Source: Rhodoplanes sp.
Lineage (GTDB): Bacteria > Pseudomonadota > Alphaproteobacteria > Rhizobiales > Xanthobacteraceae
Direction: 5' to 3'
NCBI RefSeq assembly: GCF_013377085.1
Contig: NZ_JACAAX010000016.1
Location: 1 to 64,000 of the forward strand
Length of the DNA: 64,000 bases
In this document: piece by piece, positions 24,633 through 44,925 of the stretch
Numbering within the stretch: position 1 is the first letter of the stretch
Layout: each line of letters opens with the position of its first letter
Notes under the pieces: model-generated
What the model was told of the DNA's origin: nothing
Seen by the model: only the letters and a program-made list of their open reading frames with translations
Database searches by the model: none
Position numbers and translations under genes: made by a program

Positions 24633-24647
24633 GGGGGCACACAAGGG

Positions 24648-24740
24648 CGTCATGCGCGGGCTCGACCCGCGCATCCATCAAAAGAAGACGGCATCGTCGT
24701 TTCGAAACGATGGATCGCCGGGTCGAGCCCGGCGATGACG
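24648..24740. repeat. ATGGATCGCCGGGTC-type palindromic element (family D copy 1)
   Basis: GTCATGCGCGGGCTCGACCC...CATCCATC, a central AACGATGG region, and GATCGCCGGGTCGAGCCCGG...CGATGACG. It lies between tctC and tctB of the first TTT system. A second copy is at 27996-28090. Confidence 0.75.
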
Positions 24741-24774
24741 GTGCGGCTTGGTCACCCATCCGGGCCAGCCTGCC

Positions 24775-25218: not shown

Positions 25219-25221
25219 CCC

Positions 25222-30492: not shown

Positions 30493-30888
30493 TCAGCCGG
30501 GCGCCGCGCGATGCTCCCCGGCGTCGTTCCACACGTCCTGACGACGAATCCCCCGCGCGTCGACCTCGAAGCGGTCGATGAAGCGGATGTCGGAAAAGGG
30601 CGTTCCGTTCGGCCATTCGCCGAACAGCATGCCGCGGCAGTAGACGACCCAGGCGTCGTTCTGACGCGAGACCTCCCAGGCCTCGATCGTCTTGCCGATG
30701 CGGCGATAACGCGACGCCGAGCCGGCGGCGATCGCGGCCGCCCCTTCGCGGCGCACGCCGCCCGGGAAGGTCAGCACCGCGCCCTCGGTCAGGCAGCCCG
30801 ATGCCGCCGCGCAGTCGCGCCGCTGCATCGCCGCCAGATAGTCCTTCACCAGGGTCAGCGCGGCTTCGCCTGACTCGATCGACCGCAT
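30493..30888 (-). CDS. NTF2-like / SnoaL-fold small protein
   Basis: 131 aa. Cone-shaped alpha+beta fold protein, often a small dehydratase, isomerase or binding protein. Seen: a helical opening (EAALTLVKDYLAAMQRRDCAAASGCL), then a strand containing LTFPGGVRREG, and the final strands WVVYCRGMLFGEWPNGTPFSDIRFIDRFEVD. Lies 20 bp after tctA on the same strand, so it is probably the last gene of the GntR-headed operon. Function unassigned. Confidence 0.7.
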   Translation of the reverse strand: MRSIESGEAALTLVKDYLAAMQRRDCAAASGCLTEGAVLTFPGGVRREGAAAIAAGSASRYRRIGKTIEAWEVSRQNDAWVVYCRGMLFGEWPNGTPFSDIRFIDRFEVDARGIRRQDVWNDAGEHRAAPG

Positions 30889-30908: not shown

Positions 30909-32408
30909 TCACAGCTCGTTCACGGCACGCGCCGGGGACAGCACCTTGCGCACCACCGAGAACAGCGGCAGAACCGCGATGACCGCGGTGGACACGAGGA
31001 TCGTCAGCGCGATCGGCCGGTCCAGCAGGAACTCCCAGGAGCCTCGGCCCAGCATCAGCGTCTGCCGCAGGTTGAGCTCGATCGCACCGCCGAGCACATA
31101 GGCGAGGATCAGCGGCGCGGTGTCGAACGCGAGCTTGCGCAAGCCGTAGCCGAGCAGCCCGAAGAACAGCAGCAGGCCGAGATCGAACACGCTGTTGTTG
31201 AGCGAGTAGCCGCCGACCAGGATGAACAGGATCAGCGGCGCGTACAGAATCTTGTACGGCACCTTGAGGAGCTGCACCCAGACGCCGATCAGCGGCAGGT
31301 TCAACAGGAGCAGCATGACGTTGCCGACATACATGGACGCCACGACACTCCAGAACACCTCCGGCTTGCTCTGGATCATCAGCGGCCCCGGCGCGACGCC
31401 GTACATCACGAAGGCGCCGAGCAGGATGGCGGTGACCGGGTTTCCGGGCAGGCCGAGCGTCAGCAGCGGGATGAAGGACCCGGCCGCCCCGGCATTGTTG
31501 GCCGTCTCGGGCCCGGCGACGCCCTCGATGGCGCCCTTGCCGAACCGCTCGGGATGGGCCGACAGCCGCTTCTCCAGTCCGTAGGACACGAAGGAGGCGA
31601 GCGTCGCGCCGCCGCCCGGCAACAGGCCGATCAGGAATCCGAGCACCGAGCCGCGCGCGATCGGACCGGCACACAGCTTCCAGTCCTCGCGCGAGGGCAT
31701 GAGCTGCTTGATCGGGACCATCTGCACGCTGCGCTGGGACAGACGCTCGAGGTTGTAGAAGATCTCGCCCAGGCCGAACATCCCCATGGCGATCACGACG
31801 ACGCCGACGCCGTCGGCGAGCTCGGTGATCCCGAACGTGAACCGCGGCTCGCCGGTGACGACGTCCTGCCCGACCATGCTGAGCAGGAGCCCGGCCAGGA
31901 TCATGACCAGCGACTTGATCACCGAGCCCTTGGCCAGCACCAGCAGCACGACGAAGCCGAGCAGCATCAGCGCGAAATACTCCGGCGGCCCGAACTTGAT
32001 GGCGAACTCGACCAGCGGCATGCTGATGAGCGCGATGGCGACGGCGCCGAGCGTTCCGGCGATGAACGATCCGATCGCGGCGATGCCGATGGCCGGGCCG
32101 GCGCGGCCCTGCTTCGCCATCTGATAGCCGTCGATGCAGGTCATCACGCTCTGCGCCTCGCCCGGGATGTTGACCAGGATCGCCGTGGTCGAGCCGCCGT
32201 AGCTGGCGCCGTAATAGATTCCCGCGATCATGATGATCGCCGTCACCGGCTCGAGGCCGACGGTGAGCGGCAGCAGCATGGCGATCGACGCGCTCGGGCC
32301 GAGACCGGGCAGCACCCCGATCAGCGTGCCGATCAGCGCGCCCAGGAAGCAGAACATGACGTTGTAGGGTTGCAGGACCGTGATGAACCCGCCGATGAGA
32401 CCGTCCAT
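30909..32408 (-). CDS. tctA: TTT system large membrane subunit TctA, system 2
   Basis: 499 aa permease with about 11-12 hydrophobic segments. Seen: GTLIGVLPGLGPSASIAMLLP, YYGASYGGSTTAILVNIPGE, and GVAGPETANNAGAAGSFIPLLTLGLPGNP, the TctA hallmarks. ATG 32408 shares its A with the tctB stop codon (TGATG), so translation is coupled. Downstream of tctC and tctB in the operon of the GntR regulator, lyase and flavoprotein. This setting points to uptake of the acid metabolised by those enzymes. Confidence 0.93.
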   Translation of the reverse strand: MDGLIGGFITVLQPYNVMFCFLGALIGTLIGVLPGLGPSASIAMLLPLTVGLEPVTAIIMIAGIYYGASYGGSTTAILVNIPGEAQSVMTCIDGYQMAKQGRAGPAIGIAAIGSFIAGTLGAVAIALISMPLVEFAIKFGPPEYFALMLLGFVVLLVLAKGSVIKSLVMILAGLLLSMVGQDVVTGEPRFTFGITELADGVGVVVIAMGMFGLGEIFYNLERLSQRSVQMVPIKQLMPSREDWKLCAGPIARGSVLGFLIGLLPGGGATLASFVSYGLEKRLSAHPERFGKGAIEGVAGPETANNAGAAGSFIPLLTLGLPGNPVTAILLGAFVMYGVAPGPLMIQSKPEVFWSVVASMYVGNVMLLLLNLPLIGVWVQLLKVPYKILYAPLILFILVGGYSLNNSVFDLGLLLFFGLLGYGLRKLAFDTAPLILAYVLGGAIELNLRQTLMLGRGSWEFLLDRPIALTILVSTAVIAVLPLFSVVRKVLSPARAVNEL

Positions 32409-32887
32409 CAAAGTCCTCCCAGGATCCCGGCGGGCAGCCGCACGCCGAGGATCAGCACGAACAGCCCATAGGCGGCGAGCGACGAGACCACGGCGGCGAC
32501 GAGCGCAAACCGGCTGAACGGGCGTCCGATCCCGATGGCGTAGAAGACATACATCAGGGCGAAGCTCGAGATCAGAAAGCCGGCGACCGGCAGCACCAGG
32601 ATGAACAGGCCGATCAGCACGATGACGGCCGCGACGCGGGCGTAGCCCCAGGTGTCGGGCGGCTCCTCCTCGACGACGCCGGCCTCGGGCCGGCGAACCG
32701 CGCGCACGATCAGCGCCGCCGCCAGGCCGATCATCGCGACCCCGACCGCGATCGGCATCGCCCCCGGCCCGACCAGGCGAAGCGTGCCGACGTCGAGGTC
32801 GGTCGCCAGCCAGATCGTCAGGAGGCCGACGGCGAGGAACGCCACGCCGCCGACGAGATCGCGCGAGATCGCGGGCGCGACGATCAT
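32408..32887 (-). CDS. tctB: TTT system small membrane subunit TctB, system 2
   Basis: 159 aa, four hydrophobic segments. Seen: DLVGGVAFLAVGLLTIWLATD start, GPGAMPIAVGVAMIGLAAALI, a polar linker (RRPEAGVVEEEPPDT), then two hydrophobic hairpins. ATG 32887 overlaps the tctC stop by four bases (ATGA), and its own stop overlaps the tctA start by one base. Confidence 0.87.
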   Translation of the reverse strand: MIVAPAISRDLVGGVAFLAVGLLTIWLATDLDVGTLRLVGPGAMPIAVGVAMIGLAAALIVRAVRRPEAGVVEEEPPDTWGYARVAAVIVLIGLFILVLPVAGFLISSFALMYVFYAIGIGRPFSRFALVAAVVSSLAAYGLFVLILGVRLPAGILGGL

Positions 32888-33876
32888 TTCGCCATTCCGA
32901 GATCGCGCAGCAGGCCGAGATAGAACTTGTCCTCGGCCTCGAGATCGCGCTGGAACTGATCCGGTCCGGTCACGTCGACCTCGGCCAGCGCCCGCTTGGC
33001 GAAGTCGACGAACTCGGGCGCGGCGCTGGCCTGCCTGACGGCGTCGGCGATCCTGGCGACGACCTCGTCGGGCGTCTTCGCCGGCGCGAGGAAGCCGACG
33101 CGCGGCGGCATGGCGAGATCGACGCCGGCCTCGCGGATGGTCGGCACGTCGGGGATCACCTTGGCGCGAGTGTCGCCGAACTGGGCGATCGCGATCAGGC
33201 GCTTGCCCTCGACCTGCGGCCAGATCGCCTGGGCGAAGCCGAGCGCCAGATCGACGGTGCCGCCGACCGTGGCGGTGACGGCCGGCGTCACCCCCTGGAA
33301 CGGAATGTGGTTGAGCTTGATGCCGGCCGCGCGCGCGAACGCCGCACCGGCCAGATGGGTGGCGCCGCCCGTGCCGGCGCTGCCGTATGTCACCTTGTCG
33401 GGATTGGCCTTGGCATACGCGATCAGCGACTTGAGGTCCTTGAAGGCGGCGCCCGGATAGGCGCCCATCATGTTCGGGCCGGTGGTGACCTGGGCGACGC
33501 CGCGCAGGTCGGCAAAGCCGTAAGGCAGCTTGTTCTGGTGCGGCGCGACCGTCTGGACCGAGGTGACGGCGAACAGCAGCGTGTGGCCGTCCGGCTTGGC
33601 GTTCTTGGCGACATAGTTGGTGCCGACCGAGCCGCCCGCGCCCGGCTTGGTCTCCACCACCACCGGCTTGCCGAGGATCTTCTCCATCTGCATGCCGAGG
33701 ATGCGCACGAGCTGGTCGGTCGAGCCCGGCGAATACGGCACGATCACGGTGATGGGCTCGGTCGGATAGGCGGCGCGCGCGTTGCGGGTGCCGATCAGCC
33801 CGGCCGCCGCCGTCCCGGCGGCGACCTTCAGCATGGTCCGCCGGCTCCACCCGGGCGTCGTCAAGATCTTGCTCAT
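32884..33876 (-). CDS. tctC: TTT system substrate-binding protein (Bug/TctC family), system 2
   Basis: 330 aa periplasmic binding protein. Seen: a Tat-like signal (WSRRTMLKVAAGTAAAGLIG), then AAYPTEPITVIVPYSPGSTDQLVRI, TKPGAGGSVGTNYVA, and IPDVPTIREAGVDLAMPPRVGFLAPAKTP. ATG 33876 starts one base after the flavoprotein stop (TGA-G-ATG), with its RBS GAAGGGA inside that gene. This tight coupling to the flavoprotein and lyase ties the imported compound to their chemistry. Confidence 0.91.
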   Translation of the reverse strand: MSKILTTPGWSRRTMLKVAAGTAAAGLIGTRNARAAYPTEPITVIVPYSPGSTDQLVRILGMQMEKILGKPVVVETKPGAGGSVGTNYVAKNAKPDGHTLLFAVTSVQTVAPHQNKLPYGFADLRGVAQVTTGPNMMGAYPGAAFKDLKSLIAYAKANPDKVTYGSAGTGGATHLAGAAFARAAGIKLNHIPFQGVTPAVTATVGGTVDLALGFAQAIWPQVEGKRLIAIAQFGDTRAKVIPDVPTIREAGVDLAMPPRVGFLAPAKTPDEVVARIADAVRQASAAPEFVDFAKRALAEVDVTGPDQFQRDLEAEDKFYLGLLRDLGMAK

Positions 33877-33877
33877 C

Positions 33878-35368
33878 TCAAATCCCTTCGCGATGGGGGC
33901 TTGCGTTGCTCGCAGGTGAAAGCGTGGCGGTCGGCGACCTGCCGGTCGCCGGCTTGCCCTTCGCCGCCGCGGCGCGGCGGGCAGCCGCCCGGCCGGCGAT
34001 GAAGCCGAGCCCGAGCGCCGACAGCAGACCGTTGCCGGACACGTAGCCGAGGCTGCCGTGACGGCCGCTGATGCCGCAGGCGGCGCCACCGCCGGCATAG
34101 AGGCCCGCGATCGGCGTGCCGTCCGCGCGCAGCACGCGGGCCTCGGTGTCGACGATCACGCCGCCCTGGGTGTGGAACAGCGCCGGCGCGATGCGCGTCA
34201 CCACATAGGGCGGCACCAGCGGCGCGAGGCCCCAGGCGGTGCGGCCGAACGGATCGGCCGCTTCGCCCCGGGCCGCGGCGTCCGCGCTCGCCAGGACGGC
34301 GGCGAGGCGCGCCTCCGGGCAGCCGACCAGGCGGGCGAGATCCGCCACCGTGGCGGCCTCGCGGGCGCCACCGTGATCCACGAGCTCGCCGAACTCGGGC
34401 TGGCCGGCGGCGGTGAGATCGCGGATGCGACGATCGTAGATCGCGAAGGTCGGCCGCTGGTGGCGGGCGGCGTGCTCGGCGAAGGCCGAGTAGCCCTGGC
34501 TCTCGTCGGCGAACCGGGCGCCCGCGTCGTCGACGACGACGCCGCCCTTCTCGACGATCGTCCAGGTGACCAGCGCGCCGTGCGGCTGGGCAACCCCGGC
34601 ATGAGCCTGGAAGGACGCCATGTTGCCGAGCCGGGCGCCGAGCGCCTCGCCCCACACCACCGCATCGCCCTCGCTGCCGGTGGCGCCGAAATGCGGGATC
34701 GCCGCCATGTCCGGACAGAAGCGATCGAGCAGCGCGCGGCTGTTGCCGAAGCCCGAGCAGGCCAGCACGGTCGCCGCCGCGCCGATGCGGGCGGTGTCGC
34801 CGCCGTCGGCCTTGGTCACGGCGCCGCACACGGCCCCGCCGTCGACGATCAGCGCCACCGCCGGATTGCCGAACGCGACGGGGATGTCGCGCGCCTCGGT
34901 GGCGCGCTCGAGATCTCGGATCAGGTCGGCGCCGCGGCGCGAGGGCGGCGCGTGCAGGCGGCAGACGCTGTGGCCGACATGGCGATAATGGGTGATCAGC
35001 GTCAGGTCGACGCCGACGCGGTCGAGCAGGAAGTGCACCAGCTCGGCCGAGATGCCGGCGAGACGATCGACCATGTGGTCGGCGTCGTGGCGGCCGGCCA
35101 CCCGCCGCAGATCGGCGGCGAAGCGGTCCGGATCGTCGGCGATGCCGGCGGCGCGCTGCAGCCGCGTGCCGGCGGCCGGGATGGATCCGCTCGACAGGAC
35201 CGTGTTGCCGGCGAAGCGATCGAGCTTCTCCACCACGGCGACCTCGGCGCCCGCCGCCTGGGCGGCCAGCGCCGCCACCAGGCCGCAGCCGCCGGCGCCG
35301 ACGACCAGCACGTCGACCTCGGCGTCGAAGCGCGCGTCGAACTCCGCGGCCGGTACGAGCGAAACCAC
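33878..35368 (-). CDS. FAD-dependent oxidoreductase of fumarate reductase/KstD family (TcuA-like candidate)
   Basis: 496 aa flavoprotein. Seen: N-terminal dinucleotide site VDVLVVGAGGCGLVAALAAQAAGAEVAVVEK, NTVLSSGSIPAAG, substrate-side GHSVCRLHAPPSRRG with His and Arg, and C-terminal HTQGGVIVDTEARVL and GLYAGGGAACGISG...GSLGYVSGNGL. No haem or signal sequence is visible, so it is a soluble cytoplasmic enzyme. The family includes fumarate reductase, 3-ketosteroid dehydrogenase and tricarballylate dehydrogenase. With TTT uptake, aconitase and lyase genes around it, dehydrogenation of a saturated polycarboxylate is a good hypothesis. GTG 35368 has GGAGG at ideal spacing; the lyase ends 13 bp upstream. 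Confidence 0.85.
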   Translation of the reverse strand: MVSLVPAAEFDARFDAEVDVLVVGAGGCGLVAALAAQAAGAEVAVVEKLDRFAGNTVLSSGSIPAAGTRLQRAAGIADDPDRFAADLRRVAGRHDADHMVDRLAGISAELVHFLLDRVGVDLTLITHYRHVGHSVCRLHAPPSRRGADLIRDLERATEARDIPVAFGNPAVALIVDGGAVCGAVTKADGGDTARIGAAATVLACSGFGNSRALLDRFCPDMAAIPHFGATGSEGDAVVWGEALGARLGNMASFQAHAGVAQPHGALVTWTIVEKGGVVVDDAGARFADESQGYSAFAEHAARHQRPTFAIYDRRIRDLTAAGQPEFGELVDHGGAREAATVADLARLVGCPEARLAAVLASADAAARGEAADPFGRTAWGLAPLVPPYVVTRIAPALFHTQGGVIVDTEARVLRADGTPIAGLYAGGGAACGISGRHGSLGYVSGNGLLSALGLGFIAGRAAARRAAAAKGKPATGRSPTATLSPASNASPHREGI

Positions 35369-35381
35369 CTTGGTCCTCCGG

Positions 35382-36350
35382 CTATTTCTCGGCCGGCGCG
35401 ATGCCGTACTTGGTTTCCAGCACGTCGGTCGTCAGCAGCCTGGCCTCCAGGCTGCGCATCTCGGAATAGCCCATCAGCGCCGTGATCTCGTCGATGCCGG
35501 CGACCATTTCCGGATGGTCGACCGGCTCGCCGGTGGCGACCACCTGCTTCATCATCTCCAGCGCATTCGACATGGCGCGGATGGCGGCGCCCGGCAGCAT
35601 GCGCGGCAGGCTGACGCGGCGCACGCCCAGCGCCTTCAGGCGCGGCAGCGGGATCAGCGGCGTCGTCGGCCGCGCGCGGATGCCGAAGCCCATGTTGATC
35701 GAGACGGGCACGCCGGCCGCCGCGACGATGCGGGCGATGTCCTCCTCGCGCTTGACCGCGTCCGGAAAGATCATGTCGGCGCCCGCCTCCGCATAGGCGC
35801 GGACGCGGCGGACCGCACCCTCGATCCCCTCGATCGCCAACGCATCGGTGCGCGCGACGATGACGAAGCCGTCGTTGCGACGGGCGAGGCACGCCGCCTC
35901 GATCTTCTTCACCATCTCGGCGAGCGGAATCACCTCCTTGCCGGGCATGTGGCCGCAGCGCTTGGGCGCGACCTGATCCTCGATGTTGATGCCGGCGACG
36001 CCCGCCTCCTCGAACATCTGCACCGTGTAGTGGACGTTCATCGGGTTGCCGTAACCGGTGTCGGCGTCGCAGGTGATCGGGATCGCGACGGACCGGGCGA
36101 GATAGCGGCAGTGGTCGACGTTCTCGCGCAGCCCCATGACGCCGATGTCGTCGATGCCCAGGATGGCGTTGGAGATCGCCGCGCCGCTGGTGGCGGCACA
36201 CTTGAACCCGGCCTTCTCGACCAGCCGCGCGCTGTAGCCGTCGTAGATTCCGGGCGCGACCATGAGCTCGCCGGAGTTCATGTAGGCGCGGTACTGCTCG
36301 ACCTTGCCGGTCGCTGCTTGTGAATTCACCAAGGCCTCACCCTGTGTCAT
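35382..36350 (-). CDS. isocitrate lyase/PEP mutase family lyase (2-methylisocitrate lyase-like)
   Basis: 322 aa. Mg-dependent retro-aldol C-C lyase of the ICL/PEPM superfamily. Seen: GIYDGYSARLVEKAGFKCAATSG opening, DADTGYGNPMN (metal Asp), EDQVAPKRCGHMPGKEV with the catalytic Cys at residue 132, and VARTDALAIEGIEGAVRR. The Cys-containing KRCGH loop indicates cleavage of isocitrate-, 2-methylisocitrate- or 2,3-dimethylmalate-type substrates rather than PEP mutase chemistry. ATG 36350 overlaps the gntR stop (ATGA). No prpC/prpD is adjacent, arguing against an ordinary methylcitrate cycle. Confidence 0.88.
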   Translation of the reverse strand: MTQGEALVNSQAATGKVEQYRAYMNSGELMVAPGIYDGYSARLVEKAGFKCAATSGAAISNAILGIDDIGVMGLRENVDHCRYLARSVAIPITCDADTGYGNPMNVHYTVQMFEEAGVAGINIEDQVAPKRCGHMPGKEVIPLAEMVKKIEAACLARRNDGFVIVARTDALAIEGIEGAVRRVRAYAEAGADMIFPDAVKREEDIARIVAAAGVPVSINMGFGIRARPTTPLIPLPRLKALGVRRVSLPRMLPGAAIRAMSNALEMMKQVVATGEPVDHPEMVAGIDEITALMGYSEMRSLEARLLTTDVLETKYGIAPAEK

Positions 36351-37036
36351 GCCGCCGAGACGTCGGCATCGGTGCCGACGGCTTCGGCCGAAGCGGGAAG
36401 ATGGCGCAGCACGTTCTCGGCCGCGCGGGCGATGTGGGAGCGCATCAGCGATTCGGCGAGCTCGCCGTCGCGATTGCGGATGGCCAAAACGATCTGCCGG
36501 TGCTCGGTATAGGCGATAGACCGGCGCTCGCCGGCGGAGCCGGACCAGCGCCGGTACAGGCGCAGCAGATGATAGAGATCGCCGCACAGCGTATCGACGA
36601 TGCGGGCGTTGCCGCTGGCGCGCACGATCCGCTCGTGGAAGTCGAACGTCTCGGCGGGAGACTGGCGGTCGTCCGCGCCGAGGCCGATGCGGCGATTGTG
36701 GTCCAGACCGGCCGCCAGCGCCTCGACGTCGGCCGGGTCCATGCGCTGCGCGGCGAGCCGGCTGGCATAGCCTTCGAGCGCCTCGCGCATCTCGAACAGC
36801 TCGCGCACGGCCCGCGGCTCCAGCGTGATCACGCGGGCGCGCATGAACGGCTCCCGCGAGACGAGCTGGATGCCCTGCAGCCGGCGCACCGCCTCGCGCA
36901 CCGGACCGCGACTGACACTGAAGCGCGCGGCCAGGACCGACTCGTTGACGACGGCGCCGGGCGGCAGCTCGCAACTATAGATCAGGTCGAGCAGCCGCTC
37001 GAACACGTCGTCGCCCAGAGTGGCCTTCTGCGCCAT
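36347..37036 (-). CDS. GntR family transcriptional regulator, FCD (FadR/VanR) subfamily
   Basis: 229 aa DNA-binding regulator. Seen: N-terminal winged helix with PPGAVVNESVLAARFSVSRGPVREAVRRLQG, then the all-helical FCD effector domain with FEMREALEGYASRLAA, DFHERIVRASGNARIVDTL and EHRQIVLAIRNRDGELAESLMRSHI (Asp/His metal-ligand pattern). Effectors in this subfamily are usually carboxylates. ATG 37036 is chosen from the family start; the longer frame runs across the operator. It heads the lyase-flavoprotein-tctCBA operon and faces aconitase, so it likely represses both until the substrate appears. Confidence 0.9.
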   Translation of the reverse strand: MAQKATLGDDVFERLLDLIYSCELPPGAVVNESVLAARFSVSRGPVREAVRRLQGIQLVSREPFMRARVITLEPRAVRELFEMREALEGYASRLAAQRMDPADVEALAAGLDHNRRIGLGADDRQSPAETFDFHERIVRASGNARIVDTLCGDLYHLLRLYRRWSGSAGERRSIAYTEHRQIVLAIRNRDGELAESLMRSHIARAAENVLRHLPASAEAVGTDADVSAA

Positions 37037-37060
37037 GTGCGATCCTCGACGGACGGAAAT

Positions 37061-37072
37061 AGTGTCAACACT
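37061..37072. promoter_or_regulatory. GntR-type operator half of a pair: AGTGTCAACACT
   Basis: AGTGT-CA-ACACT, perfect 5-bp arms around CA, 25 bp upstream of the gntR start codon. The core AGTGTCAACA recurs at 37235-37244 before aconitase. Palindrome size fits FCD-type GntR sites. Confidence 0.65.
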
Positions 37073-37091
37073 CTCACAAATCTTGTGAGAG
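37071..37091. promoter_or_regulatory. 21-bp perfect palindrome in the divergent control region
   Basis: CTCTCACAA - ATC - TTGTGAGAG, perfect 9-bp arms. It overlaps the end of the preceding AGTGTCAACACT site by two bases and lies 35 bp upstream of gntR. Could be a second regulator site or a dimer site for the GntR protein itself. Confidence 0.7.
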
Positions 37092-37230
37092 GCGTCAATG
37101 TCGCTGGCCGGGGTCATGGCGGTCTCTGATGCGCGAATTTCGGCCATTTTCATGCATTTCTTGGGCAATCCGCTCAAATTTGCAGCAGACCGGGAAAGCG
37201 CGCATCTCTTCCCAAGACGGGAAAATGAGC

Positions 37231-37244
37231 TATAAGTGTCAACA
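37231..37244 (+). promoter_or_regulatory. candidate aconitase promoter -10 overlapped by TGTCAACA operator
   Basis: TATAAG (37231-37236) resembles a -10 hexamer and runs directly into AGTGTCAACA (37235-37244), the same 10-mer found upstream of gntR. A repressor bound here would block the promoter. The matching -35 is weak, so activation or a non-consensus promoter is possible. Confidence 0.45.
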
Positions 37245-37303
37245 ATTCAGGGAGCGGCCCGTGCCTCCTTCCGGCACGGCTGCCGACGTCACGGACAACA
37301 TCG

Positions 37304-40018
37304 ATGACCGCCGCCGGTGATGATGACGACGTCCCGCTGAACTGGGGCGCAGACACGCTGGCGATCGCCGACGTCGCCGCCACGGCCGCCCGCGCCGGCC
37401 GCGCCGTCGCCGAGATCCCGTATGCGATCCGGGTGCTGGTGGAGAACCTCAAGCGCCATCGCCGCGCCGGCCCACCCGGCGTGGTCGGCTCAGACGACGT
37501 CGCCGCCGCCGTCCTGTGGGACCGGAACCGCAACCGCGGCCTGCCGCTCCATGTCGAGCGGGTGATCCTCCCGGACTCGAGCGGCCTGCCGGTGCTGCTC
37601 GACCTCGCCGCGCTACGCGACGCCGTCGCCGCCCGCGGCGGTGATCCGCACCAGGTCGAGCCGGTGGTGCCGGTCGACCTCGTCGTCGACCACTCGCTGC
37701 AGGTCGACTGGGCCGGCGCGAGCGACGCCATGGCGGCCAACATGCGGCGCGAATACGAGCGCAACGGCGAACGCTATCGCTTCCTCAAATGGGCGGACGG
37801 CGCCTTCAAGTCGCTGCGGGTGTTTCCGCCCGGCACCGGCATCATCCACCAGGTCAACCTCGAATTCATCGCCGAGGTCGTGCGGCGCCGGAGCCACGGC
37901 GGCACGCTGTGGGCCGTGCCGGACTTCGTCATCGGCGGCGACTCCCACACGCCGATGGTCAACGGCATCGGCGTTCTCGGCTGGGGCGTCGGCGGCATCG
38001 ACGCGGAATCGGCCATGCTCGGCGCCGCCTACGTCCTCCCCTGCCCCGAGGTGGTCGGCGTGCGGCTCGACGGCACGCGACGCGCCGGCGTCACCACCAC
38101 CGACATCGCGCTCGCCGTCACCGAGCGGCTGCGGCGCGAGACCGTCGTCGCCGCGATCGTCGAGTATTACGGCGACGCCGTGGATGCGCTGGCCATTCCG
38201 GAGCGTGCCACCATGGCCAACATGGCGCCGGAATACGGCGCCACGGCCGGCTTCTTCCCGATCGACGCACGCACCATCGACTACCTCGCGCTGACCCGGC
38301 CGGGCCGCGACCTCGCCGGCCTGGTGGACGCCTATGCCCGGCGCAACAGTCTGTTCCGGCACCCGGACGCACCCGTTCCGCACTATCAGCGCACGATCGA
38401 GATCGATGTCGGCGCCATCGGCGCAGCCGTCGCCGGGCCGCGCCGGCCGCAGGACCGGCTGGATCTGGCCGCCGTCGCCGCCGATTTCTCGCAGCGGCTC
38501 GCGCGGCCGCTCGCCGCCGGCGGCTTCGCGGCGAAACCGGCTGCGCCGACGGCCGCGCCTGCCGCCGACCGCCCCGACAACGGCACGATCGACGACGGCA
38601 CCATCGTCATCGCCGCCGTCACCTCGTGCACCAACACGTCCAACCCGGCCGTCATGCTCGCCGCCGGCCTGGTCGCCAAAAAAGCGCGGGCGCGCGGGCT
38701 CACGGTCGCGCCGCACGTCAAGACGTCGCTGGCGCCGGGCTCGCGGGTGGTCACCCGCTATCTCGACCACGCCGGCCTGCTCGGCGATCTCGAGGCGCTC
38801 GGCTTCCATGTCGTCGGCTACGGCTGCACCACCTGCGGCGGCAAGTCGGGCCCGCTCGCGTCCGATATCGCGCAGGCGATCGAACGGGACGGCCCGGTCG
38901 CCGTCGCGGTGCTGTCCGGCAACCGCAATTTCGAGGGCCGCATCCATCGCCTGGTGCGGGCGAACTACATCATGTCGCCGCCGCTGGTCGTCGCCTACGC
39001 CCTGGCGGGCCGCATCGACCGCGATCTGTCGCGCGAGCCGGTCGGGCACGATGGCGACGGCGCGCCCGTGATGCTCGCCGACCTCTGGCCGAGCGCCGAC
39101 GAGATCGCCGCCGTGATGCCGCACGCGCTCGATTCTGCCCTCTTCGCCGAGGTGTACGGACACGCCTCCGCCGATCCGCTGTGGGACGGGCTCGCCGCCC
39201 CCACGGGCGAGCGCTACTTGTGGGACGCGGCGTCCACCTATCTGGTCAAGCCCCCCTTCTTCGACGACACGCCGGCGCCGCTCGCCGACCGCATCGACGG
39301 CGCCCGCGTGCTCGGCCTGTTCGGCGACTCGCTCACCACCGACCACATCTCGCCCGGCGGCGAAATCCCGGCCGACAGCCCGGCCGGCCTCTATCTCCAG
39401 GGACAGGGCATCGCGCCGCGCGACTTCAACACCTATGTGGCGCGCCGCTGCAACCACCACGTCATGGCCCGCGCCACCTTCGCCAATCTGCGCATCAAGA
39501 ACCGGCTGCTGCCCGACCGCGAAGGCTGGTTCACCATCCATCATCCGAGCGGCGAGACGGTCACGTTCCACGAGGCGGCCCGCCGCTATCTCGACGCCGG
39601 CACTCCGACGATCGTGCTGGCCGGCCGCGAATACGGCACCGGCTCGAGCCGCGACTGGGCCGCCAAGGGCTCGGCGCTGCTCGGCCTCCGGGCCGTGATC
39701 GCCGAATCCTACGAGCGCATCCACCGCGCCAACCTGATCGGGATGGGCATCGTGCCGCTCGCCTTCAGGGACGGCGAAGGCTGGGCGAAGCTCGGCCTCA
39801 CCGGCCGCGAGACCTGCACGATCGAGAACCTGCGTGCCGGCGTCCGCACCAGCGCCCCGATCACCGTCACGACCCGCGACGGCGACCGCACGATCACGTT
39901 CGCGGTCACGGCCCAGGTGTTCACCGAAAGCGAGCGCCGCCAGATCGAAGGCGGCGGCATTCTCGCCATGATGGTCCGCGATCTCTCGGCCGCGCCGCAG
40001 CGCGCGACCACGCCTTGA
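37304..40018 (+). CDS. acnA: aconitate hydratase (AcnA/IRP type)
   Basis: 904 aa [4Fe-4S] enzyme that interconverts citrate, cis-aconitate and isocitrate, or related tricarboxylates such as methylaconitate. Seen: cluster Cys at residues 442 (VTSCTNTSNP), 508 and 511 (YGCTTCGG), plus FVIGGDSHTPMVNG, GLFGDSLTTDHISPGG, and the mobile-domain GREYGTGSSRDWAAKG. All domains 1-4 are present and the length is close to AcnA. Placed in a catabolic cluster under a GntR-type operator rather than alone, it is probably a pathway-specific paralogue, perhaps with shifted substrate. ATG 37304; hydantoinase-like gene 11 bp downstream. Confidence 0.92.
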   Translation: MTAAGDDDDVPLNWGADTLAIADVAATAARAGRAVAEIPYAIRVLVENLKRHRRAGPPGVVGSDDVAAAVLWDRNRNRGLPLHVERVILPDSSGLPVLLDLAALRDAVAARGGDPHQVEPVVPVDLVVDHSLQVDWAGASDAMAANMRREYERNGERYRFLKWADGAFKSLRVFPPGTGIIHQVNLEFIAEVVRRRSHGGTLWAVPDFVIGGDSHTPMVNGIGVLGWGVGGIDAESAMLGAAYVLPCPEVVGVRLDGTRRAGVTTTDIALAVTERLRRETVVAAIVEYYGDAVDALAIPERATMANMAPEYGATAGFFPIDARTIDYLALTRPGRDLAGLVDAYARRNSLFRHPDAPVPHYQRTIEIDVGAIGAAVAGPRRPQDRLDLAAVAADFSQRLARPLAAGGFAAKPAAPTAAPAADRPDNGTIDDGTIVIAAVTSCTNTSNPAVMLAAGLVAKKARARGLTVAPHVKTSLAPGSRVVTRYLDHAGLLGDLEALGFHVVGYGCTTCGGKSGPLASDIAQAIERDGPVAVAVLSGNRNFEGRIHRLVRANYIMSPPLVVAYALAGRIDRDLSREPVGHDGDGAPVMLADLWPSADEIAAVMPHALDSALFAEVYGHASADPLWDGLAAPTGERYLWDAASTYLVKPPFFDDTPAPLADRIDGARVLGLFGDSLTTDHISPGGEIPADSPAGLYLQGQGIAPRDFNTYVARRCNHHVMARATFANLRIKNRLLPDREGWFTIHHPSGETVTFHEAARRYLDAGTPTIVLAGREYGTGSSRDWAAKGSALLGLRAVIAESYERIHRANLIGMGIVPLAFRDGEGWAKLGLTGRETCTIENLRAGVRTSAPITVTTRDGDRTITFAVTAQVFTESERRQIEGGGILAMMVRDLSAAPQRATTP

Positions 40019-40029
40019 GGAGTGATCCC

Positions 40030-41391
40030 ATGCTCGATGTGGTTCTCGCCGGCGGCGAGCTCGTCATTCCGGAGACCGGAGTCGTGCGCGGCTCGGTCGG
40101 CATCAAGGACGGCAGGATCGCCACCGTCGCCGACCCGGACGAGACTCTGGCCGCGCGAAAAACCGTCGACTGCCGCGGCAAGTGGGTGATGCCCGGCCTG
40201 ATCGACCCGCACACCCATATCGGCTTCGGCGACAAGGAGCACGACTTCCAGACCGAGTCGCGCTCGGCGGCGCTCGGCGGCGTCACGGCACTGTTCACGT
40301 TCCACCGCTCGGCCGACCTGCGCGAGTCGTCCGCACCCTGGATCGCCCACGGCGAGAGGCTGAGCTGCATCGATTTCGGCCTGCATTTCGGCCTCACCAG
40401 CGCGCTGCATGTCGACACCCTGGTCGAGACGGCGAAGCGCTTCGGTGTCAGCTCGTTCAAGGTTTATCTGATGTACAAGGGCGCCGCCGGCGCCGCCAAG
40501 GGCTTCACCGAGATCGACGACGGCCTCTTGTTCCGCACCATGCTGGAGGCGCGCAAGGTGCCGGGCGGCGTGGTCGGCGTGCATTGCGAGAATGTCGAGG
40601 TGATCCCGGTGTTCCGCGGGCCGCTCAAGGCCGCCGGCCGCACCGATCTCGCCGCCTGGGACGAGCAGAGCCCGGACTTCCTCGAGGCCGAGAACGTCAG
40701 CCGGGTGATCTATTTCGCCGCCAAGGCGGACTGCCCGGTCAACATCGTCCATCTGTCGAGCGCCGAAGGCCTCGGCATCATCCGGCGCCACCGCGCCGTC
40801 TATCGCAATCCGGTGCACGTCGAGACCTGCGCGCACTACCTGACGATGACGCGCGACGACCCCAGCGGCTTCCTCGCCAAGGTCAATCCGCCGCTGCGCC
40901 GCCAGGCCGATTGCGACGCGCTGTGGGAGGGCATCATGGACGGCTCGATCGAGACCGTCGGCTCGGACCATGTGCCGCGCAAGGTCGCCACCAAGGCGCC
41001 GGATCTGTGGGGCGCCAGCGCCGGCTTTCCCGGCCTCGCCACCCTGCTGCCGCTGATGATCGAGGAGGGCCACTACGCCCGCGGCGTCCCGCTCACCCGC
41101 ATCGCCGCCGTGACGAGCCTCAACGTCGCGCGTCTCTACAACGTGCCCTCGAAGGGCTCGATCGCGGTCGGCAAGGACGCCGACCTGATGGTGATCGATC
41201 CGCACGAGACCCGCAAGGTCGACCACGCCGCGCTCGCCTCCTATTCCGACTACACGCCGCTGCAGGGCCGCGCGCTGCGCGGCTGGCCGGTGCACACTTT
41301 TGCGCGCGGCCGTCATCTCGTCGACGGCGGGCGCCTCACCGAGACGGCGCTGACGGCGCCGGCCGGCCACTATCTCAGGCGCGCCGTGTGA
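40030..41391 (+). CDS. dihydropyrimidinase/hydantoinase-like amidohydrolase
   Basis: 453 aa cytoplasmic cyclic-amide hydrolase. Seen: N-terminal composite domain (LDVVLAGGELVIPETGVV, DCRGKWVMPGLIDPHTHIG) with the HxH pair, FKVYLMYKG with the Lys expected to be carboxylated, then VHCEN and NIVHLSS histidines, and GSDHVPRK with the catalytic Asp. GSIAVGKDADLMVIDP is the C-terminal family motif. GAGGAG lies ahead of ATG 40030. Its place between aconitase and an amidase suggests ring opening of a cyclic imide, lactam or ureide that yields a carboxylate. Enamidase-type activity is an alternative. Confidence 0.88.
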   Translation: MLDVVLAGGELVIPETGVVRGSVGIKDGRIATVADPDETLAARKTVDCRGKWVMPGLIDPHTHIGFGDKEHDFQTESRSAALGGVTALFTFHRSADLRESSAPWIAHGERLSCIDFGLHFGLTSALHVDTLVETAKRFGVSSFKVYLMYKGAAGAAKGFTEIDDGLLFRTMLEARKVPGGVVGVHCENVEVIPVFRGPLKAAGRTDLAAWDEQSPDFLEAENVSRVIYFAAKADCPVNIVHLSSAEGLGIIRRHRAVYRNPVHVETCAHYLTMTRDDPSGFLAKVNPPLRRQADCDALWEGIMDGSIETVGSDHVPRKVATKAPDLWGASAGFPGLATLLPLMIEEGHYARGVPLTRIAAVTSLNVARLYNVPSKGSIAVGKDADLMVIDPHETRKVDHAALASYSDYTPLQGRALRGWPVHTFARGRHLVDGGRLTETALTAPAGHYLRRAV

Positions 41392-41470: not shown

Positions 41471-42202
41471 ATGACGCAGACACGCATCTGGGACAAGTTC
41501 CTCACCGCGCGCGACCAGAAGGTGCTGGCGGCCTCCGGCTACGGCAAGCGCGGCGGCTTCGGAACGCGGCCGGCGCTGTTCATCATCGACGTGCAGTACA
41601 ATTTCTGCGGCGACACCCCGCAGGACATTCTCGACGGCCTCAAGCAGTACCGCACCCATTGCGGCCGCGAGGCCTGGGACGCGGTCGCCCATATCGAGCC
41701 GCTGCTGCACCTCGCCCGCGAGAAGAATTTTCCGGTGTTCTACACCGAGAGCGCGCGCCGCACCGACATGCTCGATTCCGGCGTCCAGGTCGGCAAGAGC
41801 CATCGCGGCACCGAGAAGACCGTGATCGAAGGCACGCATGCGACCCAGACGGTCGAGCCGCTGGCGCCGCGTCCGCAGGACATCCGCATCGGCAAGCGCA
41901 AGCCGTCGTGCTTCTTCGGCACCATCTTCATGAGCCACCTGAACTTCCTCGACATCGACACGCTCATCCTGACGGGCTGCACCACCTCGGGCTGCCTGCG
42001 CGCCACGGCGGTCGACGCCTACTCGTACAATTTCAAGGTCGTCATCCCGGAGGAGTGCTCGTTCGATCGCTTCGAGGCGAGCCATGCCGTCAATCTGTTC
42101 GACCTGAACTGCAAGTACGCCGACGTCATCCCGACCGCCGAGGTCGAGACCTATCTGGGCGGCCTGCCGGTCCGCCCGCCGTTCACCGCGCCCGTCGGTT
42201 GA
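41471..42202 (+). CDS. isochorismatase-like cysteine hydrolase (amidase)
   Basis: 243 aa. Catalytic triad visible: Asp40 (IIDVQYNF), Lys144 (IGKRKPSCFFGT) and Cys175 (CTTSGCLRATAVDA), as in N-carbamoylsarcosine amidohydrolase, maleamate amidase and biuret hydrolase. An N-terminal extension of about 30 residues (MTQTRIWDKFLTARDQKVL) precedes the core. Likely hydrolyses the open-chain amide or ureide made by the preceding hydantoinase-like enzyme, releasing ammonia and an acid. Starts 79 bp after that gene, same strand. Confidence 0.88.
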   Translation: MTQTRIWDKFLTARDQKVLAASGYGKRGGFGTRPALFIIDVQYNFCGDTPQDILDGLKQYRTHCGREAWDAVAHIEPLLHLAREKNFPVFYTESARRTDMLDSGVQVGKSHRGTEKTVIEGTHATQTVEPLAPRPQDIRIGKRKPSCFFGTIFMSHLNFLDIDTLILTGCTTSGCLRATAVDAYSYNFKVVIPEECSFDRFEASHAVNLFDLNCKYADVIPTAEVETYLGGLPVRPPFTAPVG

Positions 42203-42216
42203 CCGGGGCTGCGGCG

Positions 42217-42912
42217 ATGACCGACCGGCGCGCCATCGTCACCGGCACGGCCTCGGGCATCGGGCGCGCCATCGCCCGGCGGCTGCTCGCCGACGGCTGG
42301 GAGGTGGTCGGGCTCGACCGCGAGCCGCAGGGGGAGAGCGCCGGCTTCACGCCGATCACGATCGACCTGCTCGATCGCGACCGCCTCGGCGAGATCGCCG
42401 AAAAGCTCGCCGCCGGGCGGCCGACCGCGCTGGTGCATTCGGCCGGCATCATGCGGGCCGACGACGACCCGGAGACGCGCGACACCGGCGGCGAGACCTT
42501 GTGGCACCTGCACGTCGCCGCCGCCGAGCTGCTGATCAGCACGCTGACGCCGGCGATGCCGGATCGCGACGGCCGCGTCGTGGTGATGTCGAGCCGGGCG
42601 GCACAGGGCCGGCCCGGCCGCATGTTCTATGCGGCCTCCAAGGGCGGCGTCGAAGCCATGGTGCGCTGTGCCGCCGGCGCGCTGGTGGCGCGCGGCATCA
42701 CCGTGAATGCCGTCGCGCCGGGCGCCACCGACACGCCGCAGCTCGTCGACCCGGCCCGCGCCGGCGCCCCCATCCGGCTGCCGCCGATCGGCCGGCTGAT
42801 CGCGCCCGACGAGGTCGCCGCCCTGATCGCCTTCCTGGTCGGCCCATACGGCGGCGCCATCACGGGCCAGACGCTGACCATGTGCGGCGGCGCCAGCCTG
42901 ACGCTCGCCTGA
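42217..42912 (+). CDS. short-chain dehydrogenase/reductase
   Basis: 231 aa SDR. Seen: TGTASGIG cofactor motif, HSAGI in place of NNAG, VMSSRAAQGRPG with the catalytic Ser, YAASK, and the C-terminal GAITGQTLTMCGG. ATG 42217 lies 14 bp after the amidase stop, so the two are co-transcribed. Probably oxidises or reduces a hydroxy intermediate of the same pathway. Confidence 0.85.
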   Translation: MTDRRAIVTGTASGIGRAIARRLLADGWEVVGLDREPQGESAGFTPITIDLLDRDRLGEIAEKLAAGRPTALVHSAGIMRADDDPETRDTGGETLWHLHVAAAELLISTLTPAMPDRDGRVVVMSSRAAQGRPGRMFYAASKGGVEAMVRCAAGALVARGITVNAVAPGATDTPQLVDPARAGAPIRLPPIGRLIAPDEVAALIAFLVGPYGGAITGQTLTMCGGASLTLA

Positions 42913-43041
42913 CGCGTCCGGCGGTCGGACCGGTCGCGATCGCCGCCAGGATCTCCGCAACGCGACGCGTGACGGCCGCGCCGGAGCCTCGTTAAGATGC
43001 CGGCAAGCGATCCGAAAAAAATCGTCGCCGGGAGGTCCGTC

Positions 43042-44403
43042 GTGAATCTGTTCCAGAAGCTCGTCGAGCGCGAGGAGGCCGGGCTGCCCGTCACGGTCGG
43101 GGTGATCGGCGCGGGCAAGTTCGGCACCATGTTCCTGGCCCAGGCGCGGCTGACCCGCGGCCTGCACGTGGTCGGCGTCGCCGACCTCGACGTTGTTCGC
43201 GCCAGGCGTCAGCTCGCCGCGGCCGGCTGGGAGGAGGAACGCAGCACCGCCACCTCGCTGGCCGACGCGATCGAGACGCGCCGCACCCATGTCGGCCCCG
43301 ACGCCGACGCGCTGATCGCCCAGCCGGACGTCGAGGTGATCGTCGAGGCGACCGGCGTGCCGGCCGCCGGCATCCGCCACGCGCTGGCGGCGATCGCGCA
43401 CGGCAAGCATGTGGTGATGGTCAATGTCGAGGCCGACGCGCTCGCCGGTCCGCTGCTCGCCCGCGCCGCCCAGGCGGCCGGCGTCGTCTACAGCCTCGCC
43501 TGGGGCGACCAGCCGGCGCTGATCTGCGAGCATGTCGACTGGGCGCGTGCCTGCGGCTTCAAGGTGATCTCGGCCGGCAAGGGCACACGATACGAGCCGC
43601 ACTACCACGCCTCGACGCCCGACACAGTGTGGGACATCCTCGACAAGTATCTGTCGATCGCCGACCGCGGCTCGATCAATCCAAAAATGTTCAACAGCTT
43701 CGTCGACGGCACCAAGTCGGCGATCGAGATGACGGCGGTGTGCAACGCCACCGGCCTGCTGCCGCAAAGCGACGGCCTCGCCTTCCCGCCGGCGAGCCGC
43801 TTCCAGCTCGCCGACGTATGCAAGCCGGCCCGCGACGGCGGCACCCTGGAGACGGCCGGCGTCACCGAGGTGGTCTCCTCGGTCAACCGGCAGGGCCGCG
43901 ACGTGCCGCATCATCTGGCGCTCGGCACGTTTGTCGTGATCGAGGGCGAGACCGAGTATGCGCGGCGCTGCTTTCGGGAATACGCCATGCTGCCGGATGC
44001 GAGCGGGCGGTATGCGGCACTCTACCGGCCGATCCACCTGATCGGGCTGGAGCTCGGCATCTCGGTGGCGAGCGCTGCGCTGCGCGGCGAGCCGACCGGC
44101 AGCCCGACCGGCTTCCGTTCCGACGTCGTCGCAACCGCCAAGCGCGCGCTGCGCCGGGGCGAGGTGCTGGACGGCGAAGGCGGCTTCTGCGTGTGGGGCA
44201 AGCAGACGCCGGCGGCGCGCTCTCTCGCCGACGGGCTGCTGCCGCTCGGCCTCGCCCACGGCGTCACGCTCTTGCGCGATGTTCCGGAGGGCGCAGCCTT
44301 GCGCTGGGCCGACGTGACCATCGACGAGACCGACATCGCCGTGAAAACGCGGCGGGAGATGGAGGCGTCCTGTGGCGAGACGGCAGGTGCATCGGCGCGT
44401 TGA
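43042..44403 (+). CDS. homoserine dehydrogenase-like oxidoreductase with C-terminal SAF domain
   Basis: 453 aa. NAD(P)-dependent Rossmann domain (VTVGVIGAGKFGTMFLAQA near residue 20), a catalytic-type central domain (HGKHVVMVNVEADALAGP, SLAWGDQPALICEHVDWARACGF), and a C-terminal SAF-like segment (GVTLLRDVPEGAALRWADVTID) as found in sialic acid synthase and FlgA. GTG 43042 is preferred because GGGAGG lies 6 bp upstream; an ATG at 42997 lacks an RBS. Such proteins are often misnamed as flagellar. They oxidise hydroxyacids or sugar acids in catabolic clusters; the substrate is unknown here. Confidence 0.78.
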   Translation: MNLFQKLVEREEAGLPVTVGVIGAGKFGTMFLAQARLTRGLHVVGVADLDVVRARRQLAAAGWEEERSTATSLADAIETRRTHVGPDADALIAQPDVEVIVEATGVPAAGIRHALAAIAHGKHVVMVNVEADALAGPLLARAAQAAGVVYSLAWGDQPALICEHVDWARACGFKVISAGKGTRYEPHYHASTPDTVWDILDKYLSIADRGSINPKMFNSFVDGTKSAIEMTAVCNATGLLPQSDGLAFPPASRFQLADVCKPARDGGTLETAGVTEVVSSVNRQGRDVPHHLALGTFVVIEGETEYARRCFREYAMLPDASGRYAALYRPIHLIGLELGISVASAALRGEPTGSPTGFRSDVVATAKRALRRGEVLDGEGGFCVWGKQTPAARSLADGLLPLGLAHGVTLLRDVPEGAALRWADVTIDETDIAVKTRREMEASCGETAGASAR

Positions 44404-44433: not shown

Positions 44434-44925
44434 GTGAGTGACTACTACGTTCATCGCCTGCAAGTGTCGATGTCGCTGGCGACGGCCGACAAGATCGCGA
44501 ACGAAGCCATCGCGGCCGGTCACGAAGCGAAGCTGCTGCCGTTGACCGTAGCGATCCTCGACGCCGGCGGCACGCTGGTCGTTCTCAAGCGGGAGGACGG
44601 ATCCGGCATACTGCGCGGCGATATCGCCATCGGAAAAGCCTGGGGTGCGCTCGGCATGGGCATTTCCAGCCGCACCATCCGCGATCGCCTGCGCGAGCGG
44701 CCGGCCTTTCAGAGCGCGCTCGCCGCGGCATCGGACGGACGGTTCATTCCAGTTCCCGGCGGCGTTCTGGTGATGAACGACAGGAAAGACGTGATCGGCG
44801 CGGTCGGCATCAGCGGCGACGCGTCCGACAAGGACGAGTATGCGGCCGTCACGGCGGTGCAGCGCGTCGGGCTGATGCCGCATCCCGAGATGCCGGCCGA
44901 GCACTGGCGCGAGGCCGGCCTGTGA
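44434..44925 (+). CDS. GlcG/HbpS family protein, second copy
   Basis: 163 aa, PF03928 family. Seen: LTVAILDAGGTLVVLKREDGSG, GKAWGALGMGISSR and VIGAVGISGDASDKDEY, very like the copy at 11586. GTG 44434 has GGAGG upstream. An ATG two bases earlier meets a stop codon at once and is not used. It ends 38 bp before tctC and extends the same-strand series from aconitase. Role unknown; possible haem or cofactor binding. Confidence 0.83.
   Translation: MSDYYVHRLQVSMSLATADKIANEAIAAGHEAKLLPLTVAILDAGGTLVVLKREDGSGILRGDIAIGKAWGALGMGISSRTIRDRLRERPAFQSALAAASDGRFIPVPGGVLVMNDRKDVIGAVGISGDASDKDEYAAVTAVQRVGLMPHPEMPAEHWREAGL

Follow-up and report, generated by a model that had tools for sequence, protein, structure and literature searches.

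The propionate 2-methylcitrate pathway employs PrpB, PrpD and AcnD, and the tail of nicotinate fermentation in Eubacterium barkeri includes an enamidase, dimethylmaleate hydratase and 2,3-dimethylmalate lyase. For the nicotinate pathway of Aspergillus nidulans, PMC9304392 describes a PuuE-related cyclic imidase, HxnM, followed by the amidase HxnN, with ammonia being freed. TcuA of the tcuABC operon, according to PMC10468695, is an FAD-dependent tricarballylate dehydrogenase that occurs with TcuB and TcuC. We compared these systems with a locus of Rhodoplanes sp. that lies in a 64,000-nucleotide stretch of contig NZ_JACAAX010000016.1 (the window; the genome assembly comprises 89 contigs and 6.48 Mb) and encodes a GntR regulator, an isocitrate lyase (ICL)-family lyase, an FAD flavoprotein, a tripartite tricarboxylate transporter (TTT), a SnoaL-like protein, an aconitase, a cyclic amidohydrolase and an isochorismatase-family amidase. 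With moderate confidence, we propose that this locus forms a catabolic regulon that its substrate would induce, the substrate being a small cyclic imide, or a closely similar cyclic amide, whose carbon skeleton would be a substituted succinate or a tricarboxylate. Gene content, intact catalytic residues in the amidohydrolase and lyase, conserved co-occurrence and shared operator-like sites were computed directly.

Each of the described systems resembles the locus in part. As in tcuABC, an FAD_binding_2 protein stands beside a carboxylate-type importer and has Tyr at two shared positions; unlike in tcuABC, the flavoprotein falls under the TcuA cut-off and has other conserved residues, TcuB was not found nearby, and a TTT importer is accompanied by a lyase, an amidohydrolase and an amidase. 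The lyase is nearest to methylisocitrate lyase, as would suit a 2-methylcitrate pathway, and the hydratase is of the AcnA type here and of the PrpD type in other loci. However, the lyase scored 234.8 bits against the PrpB model (TIGR02317, cut-off 354.4) and the aconitase 738 bits against AcnD (cut-off 1420), enzymes for nitrogen-containing rings are present, and neither PrpC nor PrpE was found among the ten window proteins scanned with Pfam and NCBIfam. The E. barkeri tail likewise unites an amidohydrolase, a LeuCD-type hydratase (here found in other loci) and an ICL-family lyase within one pathway, to which the present set adds the flavoprotein and the isochorismatase-family amidase; no hydroxynicotinate or methyleneglutarate-mutase gene was named among the annotated neighbours of five plasmid loci. 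The imidase-then-amidase logic of HxnM and HxnN also recurs, with PuuE-type relatives in some loci, whereas the route proposed here would continue through a hydratase and ICL-type cleavage, includes a flavoprotein and uses window enzymes of other families. We found no description of the flavoprotein gene set in the open-access literature searched; the kinds of enzyme are known, and their combination appears to be undescribed within that literature. If true, our reading would supply a new catabolic route for a class of nitrogen-ring compounds and a function for a flavoprotein subfamily.

Organization and conservation of the locus

The minus strand carries, in order, gntR (36347..37036, start likely; GntR/FCD regulator, Pfam GntR 45 and FCD 91.2 bits), the gene for an ICL/PEP-mutase-family C–C lyase resembling methylisocitrate and dimethylmalate lyases (35382..36350; PEP_mutase 192 and ICL 56 bits), the flavoprotein gene (33878..35368; FAD_binding_2 172 bits), tctC for the solute-binding subunit (32884..33876; Pfam TctC 195.6 bits), tctB for the small membrane subunit (32408..32887; Pfam TctB 67.8 bits), tctA for the large membrane subunit (30909..32408; Pfam TctA 529.8 bits) and the SnoaL-like gene (30493..30888; an NTF2-fold protein of 131 amino acids, Pfam SnoaL_2 27.3 bits against a cut-off of 27). 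All three Pfam families of a TTT importer are thus present. Overlaps of 4 bp join gntR to the lyase gene and tctC to tctB, and one of 1 bp joins tctB to tctA (counted from the tctA ATG); gaps of 13 bp and 1 bp separate the flavoprotein gene from the lyase gene and tctC, respectively, and the SnoaL-like gene ends the unit 20 bp past tctA. Divergently, on the plus strand, the gene for an AcnA-type aconitase (37304..40018) is followed on the same strand by those for a dihydropyrimidinase/hydantoinase-family cyclic amidohydrolase, the predicted ring-opener (40030..41391; TIGR02033 272.7 bits, cut-off 393), and the isochorismatase-family amidase, a predicted half-amide hydrolase (41471..42202; Pfam 95.7 bits). 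An earlier sequence-only reading had reported the minus-strand run, from gntR to tctA with overlaps or gaps of 1–13 bp, and the divergent aconitase, and coordinates and Pfam and NCBIfam families bear it out. The borders that it drew, 30909–40018, enclose real genes but are too narrow.

Two additional Rhodoplanes genomes retain the entire block, at per-gene identities of 66–95% in one (locus L049) and 54–91% in the other (L050), which argues against a chance assembly. The SnoaL-like, amidohydrolase and isochorismatase-family genes occupy identical places in both. The SnoaL-like gene has a different place in Stappia (L112, from S. stellulata DSM 5886) and Maritimibacter (L119), between the aconitase and amidohydrolase genes, and this position ties the two divergent units together. 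We conclude that the SnoaL-like gene, the amidohydrolase and the isochorismatase-family amidase belong to the unit. Among the named flavoprotein loci, that of Rhodoplanes tepidamans (L135 in strain DSM 9987) is nearest, with 79% identity; about 5 kb past it lies a molybdenum-hydroxylase trio (L223:3569-7292, on G001:C5), followed by the beginning of a gene for a RutB-like isochorismatase (L223:9586-9999), so that trio and gene span 5 to 11 kb past the amidase.

The flavoprotein is distinct from TcuA

The sequence-only reading took the flavoprotein for a TcuA-like enzyme and called for its phylogenetic placement against TcuA. The protein scored 123.4 bits against the TcuA model NF006130, for which the cut-off is 369, and two other genes of the same genome pass that cut-off with 607 and 509 bits. 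In a tree of 100 rows, the eight TcuA rows grouped in a clade of their own (SH-aLRT 100), separate from those of the flavoprotein; this was a quick tree with a long-branch warning and contained no KSTD row. Among its four rows from a TIGR01813 search, L212, which is below the model cut-off, fell inside the flavoprotein clade and the other three were long branches. Nine positions are conserved in 88 to 98 of the 98 flavoprotein-family sequences: H133, H139, R144, Q254, W269, S294, H399 and Q401 occur in none of 24 TcuA sequences, and R137 in nine. Using tblastn (E 1e-5) and a TcuB query verified at 438 bits against the TcuB model (cut-off 247), we found no TcuB relative in the window, L049 or L050 and one among 80 named flavoprotein loci, versus 12 among 24 TcuA control loci. 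Model score, separate clade, conserved residues and the lack of TcuB nearby led us to reject TcuA identity. As for the genome's own TcuA genes (L106 on G000:C16 and L078 on G000:C25), one adjoins TctC and GntR genes and the other a TcuB gene; the TcuA–TcuB pair sits in what appears, by eye, to be a cobalamin-synthesis cluster.

Position 293 is Tyr in 96 of the 98 flavoprotein-family sequences and aligns with Arg402 of the Shewanella fumarate reductase Fcc3, the acid catalyst of that enzyme, as well as with the Tyr of the Arg402Tyr mutant 1jrz. The protein thus has Tyr where flavocytochrome c and fumarate reductases have Arg, and it scored 221 bits against TIGR01813 (cut-off 285). Tyr is common to all 24 TcuA sequences at both 293 and 442, and we dropped Y293 as an argument against tricarballylate because TcuA also carries it. 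The exchange of Arg for Tyr, as in TcuA, points to a dehydrogenase without naming its substrate. An AlphaFold model of the flavoprotein (mean pLDDT 85.7) most resembles flavocytochrome c3 and urocanate reductase in fold; 3-ketosteroid and cyclohexanone dehydrogenases come next. Identity as a steroid dehydrogenase was considered and is not supported by the models: scores were 149 bits against a cut-off of 789 (NF009478) and 129 against 788 (NF005882). Under very strict limits, no KSTD was found in 81 or in 120 genomes searched. The best match of a 66-residue C-terminal piece was KSTD (E 0.0011, over 32 residues), which is suggestive only. We assign the protein to a subfamily of its own and predict, from its residues, a Tyr-type C–C dehydrogenase.

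Conserved gene company across genera

Relatives were collected by scanning one genome per species with a family alignment, and the loci kept are the best 80 of at least 475. Genes were counted anywhere in a locus, in the same operon or not; of the 80 named loci, 54 are at least 18 kb long and the other 26 fall short of that length. L135 and L049, the latter used in model building, represent a single contig, as do L159 and L054. Clusters within the 80 loci supplied the SNL and CIH models, so the counts from these models lean high. For comparison we used 24 TcuA control loci, 22 of them from 59 places (20 chosen for flank length and spread, two from the window's own genome) and two from another search; a single family supplied all the controls, whereas the flavoprotein loci are spread over many families.

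A ring-opener was present in 57 of the best 80 loci, an isochorismatase-family gene in 54, a hydratase in 61 and a lyase in 49, with all four in 40. Among the 54 longer loci the respective numbers were 45, 42, 48, 36 and 34, and among the 24 TcuA controls 1, 0, 3, 1 and 0. The SnoaL-like gene occurred in 28 of the 80 loci, as counted with a model partly built from them. The types of these partners varied: ring-openers were hydantoinase-like (22 loci), HyuA/B (32) or PuuE-like (12), hydratases were AcnA (8), LeuC (31) or MmgE/PrpD (31), and transporters were TTT (18), LIV-type ABC (26) or TRAP (14). Mapped on the tree, the hydantoinase-like and HyuA/B ring-openers require at least two changes between them and the single hydratase types at least six, counted without loci that have both or neither.

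Records with the flavoprotein gene set span Pseudomonadota, Desulfobacterales, Actinomycetota and haloarchaea. Annotated plasmid records of Methylobacterium nodulans and Sulfitobacter pontiacus hold similar sets with an ICL-family gene, and a Variovorax plasmid record a similar set without one. The lyase itself may be substituted: in Haloferax gibbonsii (L217:5762-7923) we found no ICL-type lyase, its place apparently being taken by an HMGL-like lyase and a CoA-transferase, and in Rhodococcus gordoniae (L215:9973-10815) a CitE-like lyase and CoA-transferases apparently replace it; the latter locus has an annotated amidase, not an isochorismatase. These patterns suggest that transporter, ring-opener, hydratase and sometimes lyase have been exchanged for unrelated types, with the chemistry probably kept and the flavoprotein constant. 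From this constancy among swapped partners, the kinds of reaction can be predicted closely enough for a test with a short list of substrates. Forty plasmid rows name the flavoprotein, if at all, as an FAD-dependent oxidoreductase, an FAD-binding protein or a fumarate reductase flavoprotein.

Condition and kinship of the partner enzymes

The lyase failed to reach the PrpB cut-off, as noted, and its best PDB matches were methylisocitrate lyase (171 bits) and 2,3-dimethylmalate lyase (151 bits). Its active-site loop reads KRCGH, in keeping with the pattern K-[KR]-C-G-H; the Lys, Cys and His columns are kept in 56 of 56 sequences, and the remaining column is Arg in 49 and Lys in seven. It shares 57–73% identity with the lyases of other-genus loci in its own clade versus 36–41% with four paralogs in its genome. 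The aconitase exceeds the AcnA cut-off (TIGR01341, 1072.7 bits against 945), and the motifs CT.C, TSCTN and SSRDWA are each present in 13 of the 14 copies compared, from the loci and from paralogs. It is 52–60% identical to six full-length aconitases from loci of other genera versus 47–50% to three AcnA-like paralogs of its own genome, a gap that is narrow at the low end. Since lyase and aconitase are both closer to their counterparts in other loci than to genome paralogs, the locus carries its own versions of these enzymes.

The binuclear metal site of cyclic amidohydrolases is formed by four His, a Lys and an Asp, and all six ligand columns were intact in the amidohydrolase family (25 of 25 sequences each). 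The best PDB match of the window protein was an L-hydantoinase (207 bits), and that of the amidase N-carbamoylsarcosine amidohydrolase (120 bits). The catalytic triad of the isochorismatase family is Asp-Lys-Cys; with the ISO2 group left out, Asp was present in 23 of 23 amidase sequences and Cys in 22 of 23. The SnoaL-like protein matched PDB entry 9mua, named 'Tautomerase' (186 amino acids), with 94 bits. Its relatives are often fused behind a 4-oxalocrotonate-tautomerase-type domain, as in the Tautomerase+SnoaL_2 fusion of Sulfitobacter (L216:6082-6648) and in many other loci, and the window copy consists of the SnoaL part only. MgaD, a SnoaL-like protein in a study of syringate, is treated there as a putative tautomerase (PMC12314914).

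Operator-like sites shared by the divergent units

The pattern AGTGTYRACAMT occurs at both divergent promoters, as the nearly palindromic AGTGTCAACACT ahead of gntR (37061..37072) and as AGTGTCAACAAT ahead of the aconitase gene (37235..37246); strand does not apply to either site. Its ten-base core gave three matches in the window, all at this locus (the near-palindrome being counted twice), with 0.04 expected from shuffles, and the 12-base pattern has three occurrences in the 6.48 Mb genome, of which two are at this locus. L049 and L050 retain the core at both promoters. It also stands at the aconitase unit, and again ahead of the flavoprotein unit or the tctC–flavoprotein unit, in Stappia (L112), Maritimibacter (L119) and Bordetella ansorpii (L113); the units of these three loci are arranged differently, and the core sites are kept nonetheless. 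At least one core site was present in 12 of the 13 loci of the window's clade searched, which represent 12 genomes (L049 and L135 being one), and none in L121.

Among genomes of the same genus, the 12-base pattern occurs once in G001, at this locus (whose second site fits the ten-base core only), not in G002, once in G003 and four times in G004; the pattern read backwards, as a control, gave two matches in G002 and one in G003. In G004 a further site precedes a GntR–TctC–SnoaL–PrpD unit. The shared sites make amidohydrolase, amidase, aconitase, lyase, flavoprotein and importer one likely regulon, and we predict that GntR would control both divergent units through AGTGTYRACAMT.

The third genomic match of the 12-base pattern (G000:C35:20331, or L219:8332) is intergenic in a bacteriochlorophyll gene cluster in which the BchL, BchG and BchP models were passed. 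AGTGTCAACAAT is found in this intergenic region in three genomes of the genus (L219:8332, L220:7331 and L221:7536). The surrounding stretch is conserved as a whole in the three genomes, and we take the C35 site for a coincidence without bearing on tetrapyrroles.

Proposed cyclic-imide pathway

From enzyme families and context we infer the reactions, their order, GntR binding and the substrate. TctCBA would import a cyclic imide, in which the flavoprotein would dehydrogenate the C–C bond adjoining the carbonyl group or groups. The hydantoinase-like amidohydrolase would then open the ring to a half-amide, from which the isochorismatase-family amidase would take off ammonia to leave an unsaturated acid of the aconitate or maleate type. 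Hydration of this acid by the aconitase would give a hydroxy acid, which the ICL-family lyase would split into a 2-oxo acid (glyoxylate or pyruvate) and a carboxylate. The SnoaL-like protein may, on weaker grounds, move a double bond. If the imide derives from a substituted succinate or a tricarboxylate, it would yield acids of the kind that aconitase, LeuCD, PrpD-type hydratases and ICL-type lyases handle. PMC4437985 groups imidases with hydantoinases, dihydropyrimidinases and allantoinases as cyclic amidohydrolases, and the HxnM step of the fungal pathway is followed by an amidase in the same way (PMC9304392).

Several points weigh against this proposal. The operator pattern was picked after the sites had been seen. 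Hydantoins and ureides, too, are substrates of these hydrolase families, and the best PDB matches are a hydantoinase and N-carbamoylsarcosine amidohydrolase. The third catalytic column of the isochorismatase family (Lys), as chosen, is kept in only nine of 23 sequences. A TTT importer suits a free carboxylate at least as well, and the molybdenum-hydroxylase trio about 5 kb past the R. tepidamans locus might point to a pyridine or a pyrimidine as the substrate. The company is also incomplete in places: the ring-opener is missing from 23 and the isochorismatase from 26 of the 80 named loci, and 13 of the 54 loci of at least 18 kb lack one or both. Three of these long loci (L151, L156 and L173) have the flavoprotein only, and L120, L121, L124, L171 and L174 are without both hydrolases.

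Within the cyclic-imide proposal, hematinic acid deserves mention, as it is a tricarboxylate locked as an imide. The gene set might accordingly belong to a bacterial and archaeal route that mineralizes pyrrole-derived imides, such as dihydro-hematinic or hematinic acid, from the breakdown of heme, chlorophyll and bilins. In such a route the flavoprotein would yield a maleimide, ring opening and deamidation would give methyl-homoaconitate, hydration would be carried out by an enzyme of the aconitase, LeuCD or PrpD type, and cleavage would release pyruvate and glutarate. The idea comes from the enzyme set and known substrate chemistry, nothing else, and we regard it as improbable.

Alternative substrates

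The main rival, possible but distinctly less probable than a cyclic imide, is a hydantoin or ureide route, in which the substrate would be a hydantoin or dihydropyrimidine ring with a polycarboxylate side chain. The amidohydrolase would produce an N-carbamoyl acid, the isochorismatase-family enzyme would remove the carbamoyl group, and flavoprotein, hydratase and lyase would take the rest. This route is favoured by the matches of the ring-opener, of which hydantoinase and allantoinase are the best in family and structure, and by the top structure match of the amidase, N-carbamoylsarcosine amidohydrolase; the alternative ring-openers HyuA/HyuB, which have a role in hydantoin metabolism, and the PuuE-like proteins also include hydantoin or ureide members. 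Such a route would, however, yield an amino acid, and no aminotransferase or ammonia-lyase was seen by eye among the unassigned clusters that recur in at least four of the 80 loci; an L-serine ammonia-lyase occurs in one of the five annotated plasmid loci. The frequent hydratase and lyase suit a nitrogen-free polycarboxylate directly.

The sequence-only reading had proposed that free tricarballylate, or a similar saturated tricarboxylate, is imported, dehydrogenated to aconitate and passed to aconitase and lyase, which would leave amidohydrolase and amidase as a separate neighbouring function. We consider this unlikely. The aconitase does pass the AcnA cut-off, the Tyr residues shared with TcuA make a similar dehydrogenation possible, and a TTT gene is frequent beside real TcuA too (12 of the 24 control loci), so that the pairing of TTT with a TcuA-type enzyme, put forward as a departure from tcuABC, is itself common. 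On the other side stand the low TcuA score of the flavoprotein, in a genome with two real TcuA genes, its separate clade and different residues, and the near-absence of TcuB from its loci. Amidohydrolase and amidase, moreover, accompany the flavoprotein across genera and lie downstream of the aconitase promoter, which bears an operator-like site. Ring-opening hydrolase, amidase and SnoaL-like gene would be superfluous to a plain tricarballylate route. A single pathway of importer, FAD dehydrogenase, hydratase and ICL-family lyase survives from the earlier proposal, but a TcuA-like enzyme acting on tricarballylate is not supported and gives way to the wider, better-supported pathway.

A six-membered, pyridine-derived imide (citrazinate-like, or a glutaconimide-carboxylate) that, once opened and deamidated, would be aconitate itself and be converted through isocitrate to glyoxylate and succinate, as in the known route from citrazinate to aconitate, would employ amidohydrolase, amidase, an aconitase above the AcnA cut-off and ICL-type lyase in order, and the R. 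tepidamans hydroxylase trio and RutB-like gene would fit it, but we think it doubtful: neither the window nor L050 contains a relative of the molybdenum hydroxylase, distant relatives (27%) occur in two of the 80 named loci versus two of the 20 TcuA control loci searched, and the hydratase is mostly of the LeuC or PrpD type, with aconitase in eight of the 80 loci. A literature search on the citrazinate route gave nothing relevant.

Neighbouring genes

Past the amidase, a short-chain dehydrogenase gene (42217..42912, plus strand; Pfam adh_short_C2 117.7 bits) is of uncertain membership: a 66% identical gene follows the locus in L049, and L050 has no match. It is succeeded by a gene for a DRL-type oxidoreductase (42997-44403), for which tblastn found no relative in L049 or L050, and by an HbpS-like gene (44434-44925; PF03928, 98 bits), three genes past the amidase. 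Another tctC–tctB–tctA set lies on the plus strand of the window at 23673-26751 (Pfam 196.5, 62.2 and 518.2 bits). On the same contig, 46 kb past the window (G000:C8:109727-114530, or L070:5728-10531), a UTRA-type regulator gene is followed by genes for TctC, an ICL-family lyase, LeuC and LeuD; this operon is without flavoprotein or amidohydrolase and is a candidate for a dimethylmalate- or citramalate-type route.

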